Shown: piece by piece, positions 5,909 through 15,464 of the stretch
How positions within the stretch are numbered: position 1 is the first letter of the stretch
How the letters are laid out: the number at the start of each line of letters is the position of its first letter
Program-made: the position numbers and the translations under genes
Virus record (IMG/VR): IMGVR_UViG_3300030389_003890
Coordinates: 1-21,050 of that record
Source: a virus
DNA: 21,050 nt
Reading direction: 5' to 3' (one strand)
Notes under the pieces: generated by a model
What the model saw: the letters and a program-made list of their open reading frames with translations, nothing else
Database searches by the model: none
What the model was told of the DNA's origin: nothing

Positions 5909-6516
5909 CTATTCTTTCTTTTTTATCTGTCCAATTAGTGCCGCCATTTGTCCGAGTTTTTTTGCTCTCCTGGTCAACTCGGCTACACTTGGCGGCCTTT
6001 TCGGCATAAAGTCTTCAATTTTGTAAGCACTTGTTTTTTTCGGGTCCCTGTTAATATTTGCTAAAACTGAACAAATTAACGCAGCCCTTGCGTGCTTTCT
6101 ATCTTGCTCTTTCTGCCATGCTTCCTCGTAGGCTTTTATTTCCCAACCGGTCGCGTCTAAAAATTCTTTTTTACTCAACCCGTACGCTATCCTGGCGTGA
6201 GCCATTCCGCGCAGGGTTGTTATTCCTTTCCCGCTGCTACTTCGTCTTCTAAATCTTTAGTATCTGAAAAACCACTTACGGCCATCAACTCTTTCATTTC
6301 TTCCGCTAATTCGGACAAAGGCAAAAAGTCGTCGGCGTGGTCCAGTATGTCGCCTTTTAGCCCTAATACTGAACAGGCTAGCTGCATGCTTGTCTGGACT
6401 GGCTTTTGCTCAAACTCCGTAAAACTTCCGCCGTTCATTTCAAACTGCAACAAAACGCGGTTAGTTATTTCAACTTCTTTTCTTTCCCCTTTGTAGGTTA
6501 TGCTTCCTTTTGCCAT
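5909..6516 (-). CDS. Tail assembly chaperone GT fusion made by -1 ribosomal frameshifting
   Basis: The second chaperone frame (5909-6205, 98 residues from its first ATG) lies exactly in the minus-one frame relative to the preceding chaperone gene. It is open upstream through that gene's stop codon. Slippage at 6226-6232 joins 97 residues of the first protein to 105 residues of the second, giving a 202-residue product read as complement(6226-6516) then complement(5909-6226). The join reads ...AAGK then GITTLRGMAHAR. The T part contains KIEDFMPKRPP, like the DFxP motif of lambda/HK97 T domains, and ends in a basic helix. In lambda the G and GT proteins coat the tape measure protein and recruit tube subunits; both are absent from the mature tail. 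The position immediately before the tape measure gene fits. Confidence 0.88.
6220..6516 (-). CDS. Tail assembly chaperone G-like protein (zero-frame product)
   Basis: A 98-residue protein beginning MAKGSITYKGERKEVEI, with a central helical region (FEMNGGSFTEFEQKP, LACSVLGLKGDILDH) and an acidic C-terminus ending VAAGKE. This is the expected size and placement for the G chaperone, between the tail tube and tape measure genes with only the PEP-CTERM gene intervening. Its ribosome site (AAGGAG, 5 bases before the ATG) is formed by the last two sense codons of the PEP-CTERM gene (AAG GAG, then TAA). Most ribosomes should end at the TAA at 6220-6222; a minority should slip into the T frame just before it. 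Confidence 0.82.
   Translation of the reverse strand: MAKGSITYKGERKEVEITNRVLLQFEMNGGSFTEFEQKPVQTSMQLACSVLGLKGDILDHADDFLPLSELAEEMKELMAVSGFSDTKDLEDEVAAGKE
6226..6232 (-). promoter_or_regulatory. Programmed -1 frameshift site GGGAAAG
   Basis: Read on the minus strand, the zero frame is GCG GGA AAG GAA TAA. This places the heptamer G-GGA-AAG in the canonical X-XXY-YYZ phase, two codons before the stop. The same heptamer is the known slippery site of lambda gene G. Slipping back one base re-pairs both tRNAs (GGG AAA) and continues into the T frame, which is open from here to its stop at 5909. Confidence 0.9.
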
Positions 6517-6518
6517 TT

Positions 6519-7082
6519 TTACTCCTTAATTAATTTTCTTTTTAATAATAACAAAACCGCCCCGGCTGTCATAATTAAGCCGATAGCTTGCGGTTCCGGT
6601 ATGGTGTTTATACTTAAAGCGTTCGCGCTTGTAATTTCAAAGTCAACCGTTCCAGTTGCTTCTTCGTCGTATGTACTTATTAAAATAATAAACGGACTGG
6701 CTGCCTGGTACTGAACATTTGGCAAATAAAAGAAAAGACCCTCGCCTAATTGTTCCGGGTGTCCGTCGTCGTCTTCGTAAATCCAGTTTTCAAAATCTGT
6801 TACGGTAGGTCCTGCGTAAACATAAACATAGGGGTCATTGTATGGCTGCAAATTTGCGGCGTTGTTAATTATTGAAAGGCTGCCGCTGCTTTGTGCTGTT
6901 ACCTGGTAGGCTTCGTAGTAATATGTGCCGCCGTCTAGTTCAAATTGTAAGTCGTCAGTTATGTTTGCCTGGTACTCATAAACAAAGTCGGCCCAGGCAG
7001 CCGAACAAAAAAAGACACAACAGAACCAGGCCCGCAACAATGCTGCGGGTTTCTTTGCCTGGCTTGTCGTGTTGTTAGTCAT
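6519..7082 (-). CDS. Secreted PEP-CTERM (exosortase-substrate) protein with PPC-like beta domain, inside the tail operon
   Basis: This 187-residue protein has all parts of an exosortase substrate. It has a basic N-terminus and a signal peptide (hydrophobic core about 19-29, likely cleavage after AWA at 31), then an acidic all-beta ectodomain. At the C-terminus are IPEP (161-164), a hydrophobic helix (165-180) and the basic end KRK. The ectodomain has DPYVYVY (83-89), EDDDG (103-107) and FIILISTYDE, resembling bacterial pre-peptidase C-terminal (PPC) domains found in many PEP-CTERM proteins. In cells these proteins are exported, cut at PEP by exosortase and anchored or released at the surface. 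Its start overlaps the tail tube stop (TAATG at 7082) and its last codons form the ribosome site of the chaperone gene, so it is an integral operon member. No exosortase gene is present here. Its role in the phage is unknown; surface masking or superinfection exclusion are guesses. Confidence 0.82.
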   Translation of the reverse strand: MTNNTTSQAKKPAALLRAWFCCVFFCSAAWADFVYEYQANITDDLQFELDGGTYYYEAYQVTAQSSGSLSIINNAANLQPYNDPYVYVYAGPTVTDFENWIYEDDDGHPEQLGEGLFFYLPNVQYQAASPFIILISTYDEEATGTVDFEITSANALSINTIPEPQAIGLIMTAGAVLLLLKRKLIKE

Positions 7083-7540
7083 TAACTGTCGTCGTCCGTA
7101 TAAGTTACCGCGCCGCTGACTTTAATTGTGAAGGTTGCAGTTATGATTTCGTCTACTGGTGTTCCCATTTCAAACCCAGTAACAATTCCCTTAAACTCCT
7201 GCTTGTCGCCGTCTGGGAAATTTATCTCGAAAACATTAGCCGTTGGTGTTGCTTCGTATGCTGTCGCTGCAAGCGCTCGTAGTCCGGTGTGCCCTTGTGC
7301 GTCTGCACTTGCGCCGCCGTCTTTTCCGCCGTCATACTGAACAACTACTGTAGCTTCGCCCATGTCGACGAGTCCGCCCATAAATTCACGATGTCCCGCG
7401 CTTCCGTGGTTGGTCACTTCGATTGAGTCCTTGCTTATTGTTGGGACTGTAATATCGACTAACTGCCCAAGGGTAGTCATTGTCGAGCCCCCGTCGTCGG
7501 AATACTTAAAAGTAATCCCGTTGCTTTTTTCTATTGCCAT
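7082..7540 (-). CDS. Major tail tube protein
   Basis: I place the start at the ATG at 7540, preceded by AAGGAG at 8 bases, rather than at an upstream in-frame ATG (7573) that has no ribosome site and lies inside the previous gene. The resulting 152-residue protein starts MAIEKSNGITFKYSDDGG and has the all-beta pattern of siphovirus tube proteins. Typical elements are a SIEVTNHGS segment, GEATVVVQYDGG, INFPDGDKQEFKGIVTGFE and ITATFTIKVSGAV near the C-terminus. This matches the TP901-1/lambda gpV-like tail tube superfamily. It polymerises around the tape measure to form the tail shaft. The strong ribosome site fits a high-copy virion protein. The C-terminal DDD and stop overlap the start of the PEP-CTERM gene. 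Confidence 0.8.
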   Translation of the reverse strand: MAIEKSNGITFKYSDDGGSTMTTLGQLVDITVPTISKDSIEVTNHGSAGHREFMGGLVDMGEATVVVQYDGGKDGGASADAQGHTGLRALAATAYEATPTANVFEINFPDGDKQEFKGIVTGFEMGTPVDEIITATFTIKVSGAVTYTDDDS

Positions 7541-7541
7541 G

Positions 7542-7946
7542 TTAATTCTCCTTAATATATCTAGCCCTAACATCTAGGCTTCTTATGTATGTTCTTGTTG
7601 GTAGGTCAAACTCGTCTACTTCGTTAATAGCTTCAGCGATCGTAATTTCAACGCCTGCGCCTAGGTCTCGACTTTGTCCTATAAAATAATTTTTGAAACT
7701 TTCTACTAGGCTGTCCACTTCTTCCAAATTTGAGCCGTAAAAATCAAACTGCACTTGAATTACTCCCGTCTTGAACCCGGCATAATGTGCAACCTGTGGC
7801 TCGTCATCTTGCAAAGAAAAAACAACCCGGAGTCCTTTGTTGGCTGGGTCCGCCATAACCGGGTAAAATTTAGCGCCATTTGTCCAGGCTTGCGCTTGTT
7901 CAAGCTGAACCAAAAACCTAGCTAAAGATGAATAAACCGACGCCAC
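7542..7946 (-). CDS. Probable tail terminator / tail-completion protein
   Basis: A 134-residue protein directly before the tail tube gene, the usual place of the tail terminator (lambda gpU, HK97 gp11). It opens with a helix (VYSSLARFLVQLEQAQAW), continues with strands containing VVFSLQDDEPQ and GVIQVQFDFYGSNLEEVDSLVE, and ends with TYIRSLDVRARYIKE. This alternation, with a helix that could pack on a mixed sheet, is typical of the terminator fold, but I do not recognise a specific family. The start is GTG at 7946, just after the stop of the small membrane-protein gene; no strong ribosome site is seen. The stop lies one base from the tail tube ATG. Assignment rests mainly on position and size. 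Confidence 0.6.
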   Translation of the reverse strand: MASVYSSLARFLVQLEQAQAWTNGAKFYPVMADPANKGLRVVFSLQDDEPQVAHYAGFKTGVIQVQFDFYGSNLEEVDSLVESFKNYFIGQSRDLGAGVEITIAEAINEVDEFDLPTRTYIRSLDVRARYIKEN

Positions 7947-7949
7947 TTT

Positions 7950-8105
7950 TTAGCCTTTCTTCTTTGTTAAAAAATTTAGGAATTTATATAGCTTTGAATC
8001 TTTAGGCAAAAACATGCAAAGGGTAGCAGCTAAACCTAACAAACCCAGACCAATTCCGACTAGATTGTTTTTAATTTGTTCTAAAATTATTTCTAAAAAA
8101 ATCAT
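7950..8105 (-). CDS. Small single-span membrane protein (51 aa)
   Basis: This short frame starts with an ATG that overlaps the previous stop (ATGA at 8102-8105) and runs for 51 residues. It begins MIFLEIILEQIKNN, has one strongly hydrophobic segment at about 15-33 (LVGIGLGLLGLAATLC) and ends with a basic tail (LTKKKG). The start/stop overlap on one side and the close spacing to the next gene on the other (3 bases) argue that it is translated. It could be a lysis accessory protein or small holin, but nothing in the sequence fixes its function. It lies among neck genes. Confidence 0.6.
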   Translation of the reverse strand: MIFLEIILEQIKNNLVGIGLGLLGLAATLCMFLPKDSKLYKFLNFLTKKKG

Positions 8106-8677
8106 ATCTGGCTCCCGTCTTCGTCGTCTGTTAAATTGCCCGGCGCTGTGGGACCCATTGACTTTCTAAATGCTTCGCGCACTTGTTTTTCTTCTTCTGT
8201 TAAATTTTTTTCAGCGTCTATTGCTTTTTTATACTCTCCGACTGGTATTCCTAAAACTGTTTCGGCTGCGGGTATTTCTTGCCCTGCATATTTTGAACCT
8301 TCCGGCGGTACTATTGTTCCGGTTTCTATTAACTCGGCAACTAATGGCGCAGCTGTTGCGTGTGCTTGCCTGGCGTTGTCTATAATATGTTCTCCCTGGA
8401 AGCCAGCCGCTGACGCTAGACTTATACAACCGGCAGCGCCTAAATTCTGCGCTTGTGCCGTGACAGCTTGTAAAATGCCTTGTGACGCGTTACCTGCTGT
8501 TTGGCTTATTGTTTCCCCTACTGCGGCTTCTTTTTGCTTTAAATCGAATTTAACGCGTTCTTTGCCTGGCTTTTCGTATATGTCGCCGGGTCTTTCTGTT
8601 TTGTGCGCTCTGTATAAGTAGCCTTCAATTGTTACTTTTTCGCCTATCGGTTCTTTGTTGTCTTTTTTCTTGGCCAT
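8102..8677 (-). CDS. Hypothetical neck-module protein
   Basis: A 191-residue hydrophilic protein that I do not recognise. It begins with a lysine-rich stretch (MAKKKDNKEPIGEKV), then GYLYRAHKTERPGDIYEKPG. A central Ala/Gln-rich helical region follows (about 60-125). The C-terminal part contains PAAETVLGIPVGEYKKAID and an acidic end (LTDDEDGSQI). There is no signal peptide or membrane segment. The start is in a TAATG overlap with the gp10-like gene and the stop in an ATGA overlap with the small membrane-protein gene, so it is a genuine member of the operon. It sits between the HK97 gp10-like gene and the tail terminator candidate, which suggests a structural or assembly role; that is inference from position only. 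Confidence 0.65.
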   Translation of the reverse strand: MAKKKDNKEPIGEKVTIEGYLYRAHKTERPGDIYEKPGKERVKFDLKQKEAAVGETISQTAGNASQGILQAVTAQAQNLGAAGCISLASAAGFQGEHIIDNARQAHATAAPLVAELIETGTIVPPEGSKYAGQEIPAAETVLGIPVGEYKKAIDAEKNLTEEEKQVREAFRKSMGPTAPGNLTDDEDGSQI

Positions 8678-9132: not shown

Positions 9133-9590
9133 ACTGCTTCAACCCCTCTAACTTTTAAAAAATCCCGGCGCCCAACTTCCACAACGCTAATAATTTCAAA
9201 ATATCTAGTGCCGTATTTTATGCGGCTGCTTTTTGTTTTTATTGCTGTTGTTGGATTGTAACGAATAACAAAGTCGGCTACTTGTCTTCCTAATTCTGCG
9301 CCTACGTCTAGTTTTTCGCTAGCTTCTTTCATTACTACTTGCGCCCATACTGTCAAAACGTCTTGCCATAAAGTATCTACTAGGTTAGTCATTCCGCTGT
9401 CGTCGTCTCCTGGTGTGAACGGGTCCGAAACGTCAGCGCTTGGGTTTAAGTCTATGTTAAACGTTCCCCAGGTTTGCCCAAACTGTCCGCGTCCGTCTGC
9501 TGCTGGCGGATTTCCTAAAATACCCGAGACGTCCTGCTGTGTGCGTTCCTGGTATGTTATTCTTTCGTCTAGTCTGCCAATGTTTCTCAT
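9129..9590 (-). CDS. Head-tail adaptor (SPP1 gp16 / phage H-T joining family)
   Basis: I start this gene at the ATG at 9590, which overlaps the stop of the holin-like gene (ATGA at 9587-9590). The start gives MRNIGRLDERITYQERTQ, the classic opening of head-tail adaptor proteins; a longer frame from 9683 lies inside the upstream gene. The 153-residue product then has an acidic Asp/Pro-rich insertion (about 30-65) and a middle helix with VWAQVVMKEASEKLDVGAEL. It ends with strands RIKYGTRYFEIISVVEVGRR and DFLKVRGVEAV, as is usual. It binds below the connector and helps close the neck. The insertion with the DPFTPGDDDSG segment is unusual for the family, which is normally about 110 residues. Confidence 0.78.
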   Translation of the reverse strand: MRNIGRLDERITYQERTQQDVSGILGNPPAADGRGQFGQTWGTFNIDLNPSADVSDPFTPGDDDSGMTNLVDTLWQDVLTVWAQVVMKEASEKLDVGAELGRQVADFVIRYNPTTAIKTKSSRIKYGTRYFEIISVVEVGRRDFLKVRGVEAV

Positions 9591-10012
9591 TTTACTTGTG
9601 AGCTCCCAAAATAAAAACCAACAAGGGCTAACATTGTTTGCCGTACTTCCGGCAATAAAACGTAGCCGTTTAATTCTATCCAACCGTTACCCTTTGCGAA
9701 TAAGTCGCCAAATAAAAACCCAAACAGTCCGCTGTTTTTTCCTGCTTCAATAGTTACGGGCTCATTAAAAAAAGCCAAAATAAACGGCGCAAAAATAACA
9801 GCAAACAAAGTACAAAGCGCAATAGTTCTGCGCACTACTTGCCCAGCTACTCCGTCGCGTTTAGCTGCTTTGTCTGCGCTTTCATCTGCTAGCCCTTGTT
9901 TTTTTATCATGCTTTCTAGTTGTTGCGTCTGCGCTTGTGCCTGGGCTGCGATTAATTTCATTACAAACCCCGACAAGCTACCGCCTAGCATTGCTATTAG
10001 TTCCATGCTCAC
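9587..10012 (-). CDS. Holin-like membrane protein
   Basis: The 141-residue product starts at GTG (10012), with GGAG 6 bases upstream; a second possible start is the ATG two codons on. It has a hydrophobic N-terminal segment (3-22), a Gln/Ala-rich helix and a charged linker. A clear membrane segment follows at about 63-82 (TIALCTLFAVIFAPFILAFF), and a second near 124-137 ending GFYFGSSQ. The arrangement (amphipathic head, basic RR before the first span, last span ending GxYFGS) resembles phage holin-like proteins. It overlaps the small membrane-protein gene before it (GTGA) and the adaptor gene after it. No endolysin gene is near, so a lysis role is a reasonable but unproven reading. Confidence 0.55.
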   Translation of the reverse strand: MSMELIAMLGGSLSGFVMKLIAAQAQAQTQQLESMIKKQGLADESADKAAKRDGVAGQVVRRTIALCTLFAVIFAPFILAFFNEPVTIEAGKNSGLFGFLFGDLFAKGNGWIELNGYVLLPEVRQTMLALVGFYFGSSQVK

Positions 10013-10188
10013 TTTTTTCTCCAGGCTTTGGCTATGTTATAAAATGTTGAAAGTCCGACTAGTATTGCAACAAGACTCGCAGCAATAGAAGCCACGTAGC
10101 TTATATCCTGCAAACCCCAGGACGCCCCGGCGCTTGCTGCGCTTACTAGCGCTTTTGTTCCTGTGTCTATTATTTCGTTTGTTGTCAT
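10009..10188 (-). CDS. Small membrane protein, possible holin partner (59 aa)
   Basis: This 59-codon gene begins with an ATG in an ATGA overlap with the gene before it (10185-10188) and stops in a GTGA overlap with the holin-like gene (10009-10012). The product has a polar N-terminus (MTTNEIIDTGTKALVSAASAG), one membrane segment at about 31-49 (YVASIAASLVAILVGLST) and a basic end (AKAWRKK). Its stop region also carries the ribosome site (GGAG) of the next gene. Size and topology fit a small holin or antiholin-type protein made together with the adjacent 141-residue membrane protein. Function is inferred. Confidence 0.65.
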   Translation of the reverse strand: MTTNEIIDTGTKALVSAASAGASWGLQDISYVASIAASLVAILVGLSTFYNIAKAWRKK

Positions 10189-15302: not shown

Positions 15303-15464
15303 ATGAAAGTAATTCAATACCGTGGCGCACCGGTAACGGCAGTCGAAGACAAGAAAGACGAAAAAACCGTTAGAAGTTATCGCGGCGCTACTTATGTTGC
15401 AAAGAAACAACAAAAAGAAAAGACAGGACCGCTAAACTACCGGGGCACTACCTGGGAAGCGTAA
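15303..15464 (+). CDS. Small YRG-repeat protein, DUF4278-like; only plus-strand gene
   Basis: This 53-codon gene is the only convincing plus-strand gene. It has its own sigma70 promoter, a good ribosome site (AAGGGG, 8 bases before the ATG) and a terminator hairpin just after the stop. The product is highly charged and contains three copies of a short motif: QYRGAPV near the start, SYRGATY at about 25-31 and NYRGTTW at the end, separated by Lys/Glu-rich linkers. YRG followed by one or two residues and an aromatic is the hallmark of DUF4278 proteins, small proteins of unknown function common in cyanobacteria and also found elsewhere. Its independent expression and orientation, opposite to all virion genes, mark it as a possible moron, that is, cargo expressed apart from the lytic programme. 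Function unknown. Confidence 0.72.
   Translation: MKVIQYRGAPVTAVEDKKDEKTVRSYRGATYVAKKQQKEKTGPLNYRGTTWEA

Follow-up and report, generated by a model that had tools for sequence, protein, structure and literature searches.

Marine phages of a family with at least two virion plans share a conserved gene encoding a secreted PEP-CTERM protein, and the conserved unit is a three-gene cassette, W12-W11-PEP, and not a position among tail genes. The gene was studied in a 21,050-base IMG/VR virus record (the window), where its reading frame runs on the minus strand from 7082 down to 6519. An earlier note had described it as a PEP-CTERM exosortase-substrate gene built into a phage tail operon; the sorting signal withstood scrutiny, and the operon did not.

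Anatomy of the PEP gene

The gene, its parts and its immediate neighbours in the window are as follows.

7082..7573 (-), tail tube protein, its stop overlapping the PEP start (PF16461, phrog_158)
6519..7082 (-), phage PEP-CTERM protein gene, 187 aa
6990..7082 (-), predicted N-terminal Sec-type signal peptide, residues 1-31, predicted cleavage between AWA and D (from the sequence and relatives)
6603..6989 (-), predicted acidic beta-sandwich domain (jelly-roll, plausibly PPC-like), residues 32-160
6522..6602 (-), PEP-CTERM sorting signal (IPEP, TM helix, KRK tail), residues 161-187 (TIGR02595)
6522..6527 (-), AAGGAG, the last two PEP sense codons and ribosome site for the next gene
6220..6516 (-), tail assembly chaperone-like gene in the G position (by position; kept in sipho relatives)

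The compact junctions reported earlier are present: the PEP ATG overlaps the tail-tube stop (TAATG at 7084-7080), and 5 nt separate the final AAG GAG codons (6527-6522) from the ATG that opens the next gene (6516). Profiles identify the window neighbours as lambda-like tail genes (tail tube, PF16461/PF16460; Phage_tail_T; tape measure), whereas the 98-aa 'chaperone G' has no profile match and takes its identity from position and conservation in relatives.

The protein begins with KK..R and a hydrophobic stretch leading to AWA-D, as expected of the signal peptide first proposed; a small residue precedes the conserved D at the signal end in most of 24 relatives, signal peptides being judged here from hydropathy and cleavage pattern. 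Its C-terminus reads IPEP-QAIGLIMTAGAVLLLL-KRKLIKE and matches TIGR02595 over residues 161-183, marginally, at 16.4 bits against a curated cut-off of 16. With the second PEP-CTERM model, PF07589, there is no match in the window copy but there are matches in 8/24 family members (E up to 1), among them that of L015 at 20.8 bits against a cut-off of 20.7.

The AlphaFold model of the protein (pLDDT 74.8) predicts a beta sandwich flanked by an N-terminal and a C-terminal helix, in agreement with the beta domain read from the sequence, which contains the motifs YNDPY, EDDDG, GLFFYL and YD..ATGTVDF. Its PDB neighbours (E 2e-4 to 3e-3, TM 0.4-0.5) include calcium-bound LipL32, the Tk-SP subtilisin of Thermococcus, of which the matched part is presumably the C-terminal jelly roll, calpain C2-like domains and CBM6. 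As these are mostly calcium-binding or C2-like jelly rolls, the label 'PPC-like' is plausible but weak: the PPC profile (PF04151) matches none of 24 members, and any likeness lies at the level of the fold only. The acidic EDDDG motif would suit calcium binding.

A conserved phage protein family

Membership of the window PEP protein in a real phage family with a PEP-CTERM tail is confirmed. The family was reached through a tail-tube query, which gave a relative (L002) whose PEP-family protein is 37% identical to the window copy, and alignment scans enlarged it to 16 and then 27 contigs, which with the window makes 28 from IMG/VR; two further members, L123 and L124, came to light later through a scan with W12. 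Scanning viral contigs with P0001 or TerL as single-protein queries gave no match, nor did a genome-contig scan with the first family alignment; tblastn searches of the cultured-phage collection INPHARED with the PEP protein and W12 returned nothing even at E 10 and 0.1. In BFVD, the viral protein A0A516MBN4 is 40% identical to it.

P162 and E163 are invariant in 24/24 aligned members, spanning 12 clusters at 70% identity, with the full PEP in 21 and PEA in the other three. A hydrophobic N-terminus, a C-terminal TM stretch and two to four K/R in the tail are common to all 24. TIGR02595 is matched by 18/24 members (E up to 0.5), and scanned at the DNA level it matches 16 of 17 records, 12 of them over the cut-off, at one site apiece. 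The family is under purifying selection (median pairwise dN/dS 0.215), its highly variable part being the N-terminal region. The three PEA members have IPEA instead of IPEP in an otherwise intact tail (L013:29-604, L060:7992-8567 and L065:7917-8537), and such natural variants are useful for testing exosortase recognition.

A window score just over the cut-off is what might be expected if a tail or virion protein had a C-terminal TM stretch that merely happens to contain PEP. The invariance across the family and the breadth of TIGR02595 matches oppose such a coincidence, as do linkage to the cassette instead of to tail genes and an empty background: PEP-CTERM-like tails number 0 among 2,022 ORFs (482 kb) from 64 W15-sharing phage loci without the cassette, and in cassette contigs put through the same test the family gene accounts for every match. 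Chance resemblance is accordingly an extremely improbable explanation.

The W12-W11-PEP cassette

The other cassette genes, and a neighbour frequently found with them, lie upstream of the PEP gene in the window.

8102..8677 (-), W12, 191 aa, cassette gene 1
7950..8105 (-), W11, 51 aa, one TM, cassette gene 2
9587..10012 (-), W15, 141-aa TM protein, holin-like by appearance (phrog_38283)

In each of the 26 contigs that extend upstream of PEP, W12 and W11 precede it in the same orientation. W11 and PEP are usually directly adjacent, and a minority of contigs, the window included, have up to about 2 kb of intervening genes. The AlphaFold model of W12 (pLDDT 45) is unusable. W15 is present in 23/28 family contigs, at mostly 81-87% identity among cassette phages and 52% to verrucophage P8625; more than 550 relatives occur in IMG/VR, distant ones in pelagiphages and roseophages, in late regions. 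An 'exosortase-like' reading of W15 (TIGR04128, E 0.1) was not significant and was dropped. Also in the window, positions 10009-10188 encode a 59-aa TM protein that is conserved in sipho relatives and has weak SLATT/DUF4231 similarity (Pfam E 8e-4, below cut-off), and positions 15303-15464 (+) hold a 53-aa ORF that has a good ribosome site, contains YRG[AT] repeats and runs against all virion genes.

The virion genes around the cassette differ in kind. Some cassette contigs are lambda-like siphoviruses, and others have T7-like tail genes or another virion plan: five share the lambda-like tail, which the others lack, and T7-like tubular or internal virion proteins were found in two examined contigs. 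The search of relatives for a gene between tail tube and chaperone, which the earlier note had called for, recovered the gene but in another position: in sipho relatives with the same tail it lies between two tube genes, beside W12-W11. A second, longer tail-tube paralogue follows PEP at L002:3381-4475, L020:17296-18330, L022:18850-19941 and L055:8510-9580, and is lacking in the window. In several podo-type contigs the cassette falls between the tail-fibre region and W15. The siphovirus copies do not form one group in the PEP-protein tree, in which well-supported branches require virion type to have changed at least twice. The tail-operon reading is not supported, and the PEP gene also occurs in phages with T7-like tail genes, which have no tube-to-chaperone interval; with the cassette present in unlike virion plans and the siphovirus copies scattered, that interval is incidental.

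Substitute third genes

The W12-based scan gave 40 loci, and substitutes were judged where enough downstream sequence was available, L116 being left out at a contig end. About nine W12-W11 contigs lack the jelly-roll protein and have an unrelated PEP-CTERM-ended ORF in its place, so that the phage group which the gene had been thought to mark extends from at least 28 contigs to these as well. The substitute at L149 encodes 116 aa with a signal present and a weak match to the family model. At eight loci, and as a partial ORF at L156, a PEP-CTERM-ended ORF lies in the -1 frame across W11.

L120:2439-2762, -1-frame ORF
L121:1348-1671, -1-frame ORF
L129:6365-6727, -1-frame ORF
L130:3433-3750, -1-frame ORF
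L133:1697-2071, -1-frame ORF
L135:6413-6739, -1-frame ORF
L136:6413-6739, -1-frame ORF
L146:3318-3647, -1-frame ORF

Of the eight full ORFs, five score above the TIGR02595 cut-off, and the -1 frame of W11 has no stops in these eight, against one to seven in all other W11 genes tested. The case for an overlapping gene that replaces the jelly-roll PEP protein is suggestive only, because synonymous sites in W11 of this group show no constraint, the nearest W11 genes outside the group are interrupted in that frame by a single stop, and the alternative-frame ORFs have no visible signal peptide. A frameshift origin for these ORFs was rejected on inspection, as the eight do not share a conserved T6 slippery site.

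A replaceable mature domain beside a conserved tail is what would be seen if the protein served as a decoy which, as an abundant substrate or through a poorly cleaved tail, would saturate or block host exosortase and so halt renewal of the surface or exopolysaccharide (EPS) layer, and the PEA variants might be read in the same way. The strong conservation of the main family's mature domain (dN/dS about 0.2) would nonetheless be unexpected in a pure decoy, and we hold this explanation to be very unlikely.

Probable hosts and their exosortases

The hosts of the cassette phages are probably marine Opitutae (Verrucomicrobiota), because genes are shared with verrucophage P8625, whose host is Puniceicoccales sp. 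IMCC8625 (PMC4642752). One or other cassette phage has in common with P8625 a phosphoesterase, a capsid protein, a protease, a methylase and cassette-flanking genes, and in some relatives the cassette adjoins equivalents of P8625 genes 26 and 27. GTDB contigs with W15 belong to an Opitutae MAG and a Verrucomicrobiota MAG with two exosortases each; W15 relatives also occur in exosortase-free bins labelled Rhodobacteraceae and Rickettsiales, which are possibly misbinned phage.

Exosortase is encoded in 93/132 genomes from the order of the Opitutae MAG, so that the probable host lineage commonly possesses the enzyme that the earlier proposal required. TIGR02595 proteins occur in 21/35 genomes of this order, at up to about 30 per genome, with tails resembling those of the phages (for example VPEPSTYALLGG..RRRK). 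Beyond two tail-only matches, no homologue of the phage PEP protein was found in 373 genomes of the order, and none of W12 in 388 Verrucomicrobiota genomes, a search made without a positive control. Apart from low-complexity sequence and W15, searches of host DNA for spacers or prophage turned up only a 35-bp match in G160, which by eye looked like unrelated host coding sequence.

Proposed function

Exosortase substrates are exported by Sec and anchored through the PEP-CTERM region, with processing thought to occur via exosortase, and in Nostoc the loss of exosortase depletes several substrates from the exoproteome (PMC12188702). If the phage protein behaves likewise, it would end up on the host surface or be released from it. 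We propose a late, Sec-exported phage substrate of the host exosortase that acts on the host envelope, and put the chances of this whole proposal at about even. The PEP protein would be made late, together with virion genes, exported by Sec and cleaved at its signal between A and D (x-A-D); the C-terminal PEP-TM-basic tail would anchor it in the inner membrane, with the acidic, probably calcium-binding jelly-roll domain in the periplasm. Host exosortase would then cut at PEP, and the cleaved protein could pass to the cell surface or exopolysaccharide. The likeliest outcome of such late-infection action would be a loosened or remodelled outer envelope or EPS and thereby virion release, with W12, W11 and perhaps the holin-like W15 as partners. 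We favour a role in release or envelope change because the PEP gene sits among virion genes, and because podo-type copies lie between the tail-fibre region and W15.

That same placement, after the tail-fibre region and near W15, could also be that of a spanin-like lysis protein, an anchored beta protein that disrupts the outer membrane without exosortase and for which the PEP tail is a TM anchor or mimic. No recognisable spanin is encoded by the near-full contigs G010 and G011; on their coding strand, the products that could plausibly act on the envelope are PEP, W11, W15 and W16, together with a small lysozyme-like ORF in the case of G010. Unimolecular spanins likewise combine a beta-rich periplasmic domain with a C-terminal TMD (PMC6139136). 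They also have an N-terminal lipoylation signal, however, whereas the window copy has no lipobox and a search of the family gave one chance match, in L034; moreover, a spanin would leave unexplained both the invariant P-E and the PEP-CTERM ends of the replacement ORFs. We therefore consider a spanin unlikely. The lysozyme/SLT-like ORF (ESGG...GALQIQ; L022:6556-6963, minus strand) is, by eye, a candidate endolysin of G010.

Superinfection exclusion or receptor masking, whereby a domain displayed through exosortase covers or changes the infected cell's surface, would draw on the surface-sorting signal, the variable N-terminal region and the sharing of the gene by unlike phages whose hosts are probably related. 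Genes for exclusion are usually early or lysogenic, whereas this gene lies in a late, structural cluster, always linked to W12-W11, with no evidence of lysogeny, and we judge exclusion or masking to be distinctly unlikely.

Returning to exosortase-dependent action on the envelope, a broader version would have a guild of unrelated phages, probably of marine Verrucomicrobiota, carry the cassette with any exosortase-tagged protein as its third gene, the tag having been acquired at least twice, once in a frame overlapping W11. If any tagged protein will serve, then the phages would require host exosortase for envelope remodelling or release; we advance this only tentatively, and would sooner doubt than assume it.

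Comparison with known systems

The phage proteins resemble bacterial PEP-CTERM/exosortase substrates (TIGR02595, PF07589; Haft et al.; PMC3237569, PMC4960237, PMC12188702) in their N-terminal signal, divergent mature domain, and PEP, TM and basic cluster. They differ in being phage-encoded, in a fixed three-gene cassette with one per phage, and in a mature domain lacking homologues in the 373 candidate-host-order genomes. LPXTG/sortase substrates on Gram-positive prophages are likewise phage-borne substrates of a host sorting enzyme, but there the enzyme is unrelated, and a Gram-negative host is expected for the cassette phages. With unimolecular spanins (phage T1 gp11 family; PMC6139136) they have in common secretion, a beta-rich periplasmic domain, a C-terminal TMD and a late gene position close to holin-like genes, and on this comparison of features they are set apart through the conserved PEP and the lack of a lipobox. 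The late region of P8625 (KP792622, genes 26-29) shares W15, the equivalents of genes 26 and 27 and the phosphoesterase with the cassette phages, unlike which it has none of W12, W11 and the PEP gene.

In the open literature we found nothing linking phages with PEP-CTERM and no phage-encoded exosortase substrate; a Microcystis paper considered as such a link deals with host genes. Exosortase substrates are known so far as bacterial surface and EPS proteins. The tag is of a known kind, and the phage cassette built around it appears new. The conserved tagged gene suggests that these viruses use the host surface-protein machinery late in infection. If this is true, phages exploit a poorly understood Gram-negative sorting system, and would offer a genetic handle both on exosortase function and on phage release from EPS-coated marine bacteria, with the cassette as a marker that links uncultured phages to exosortase-bearing hosts.
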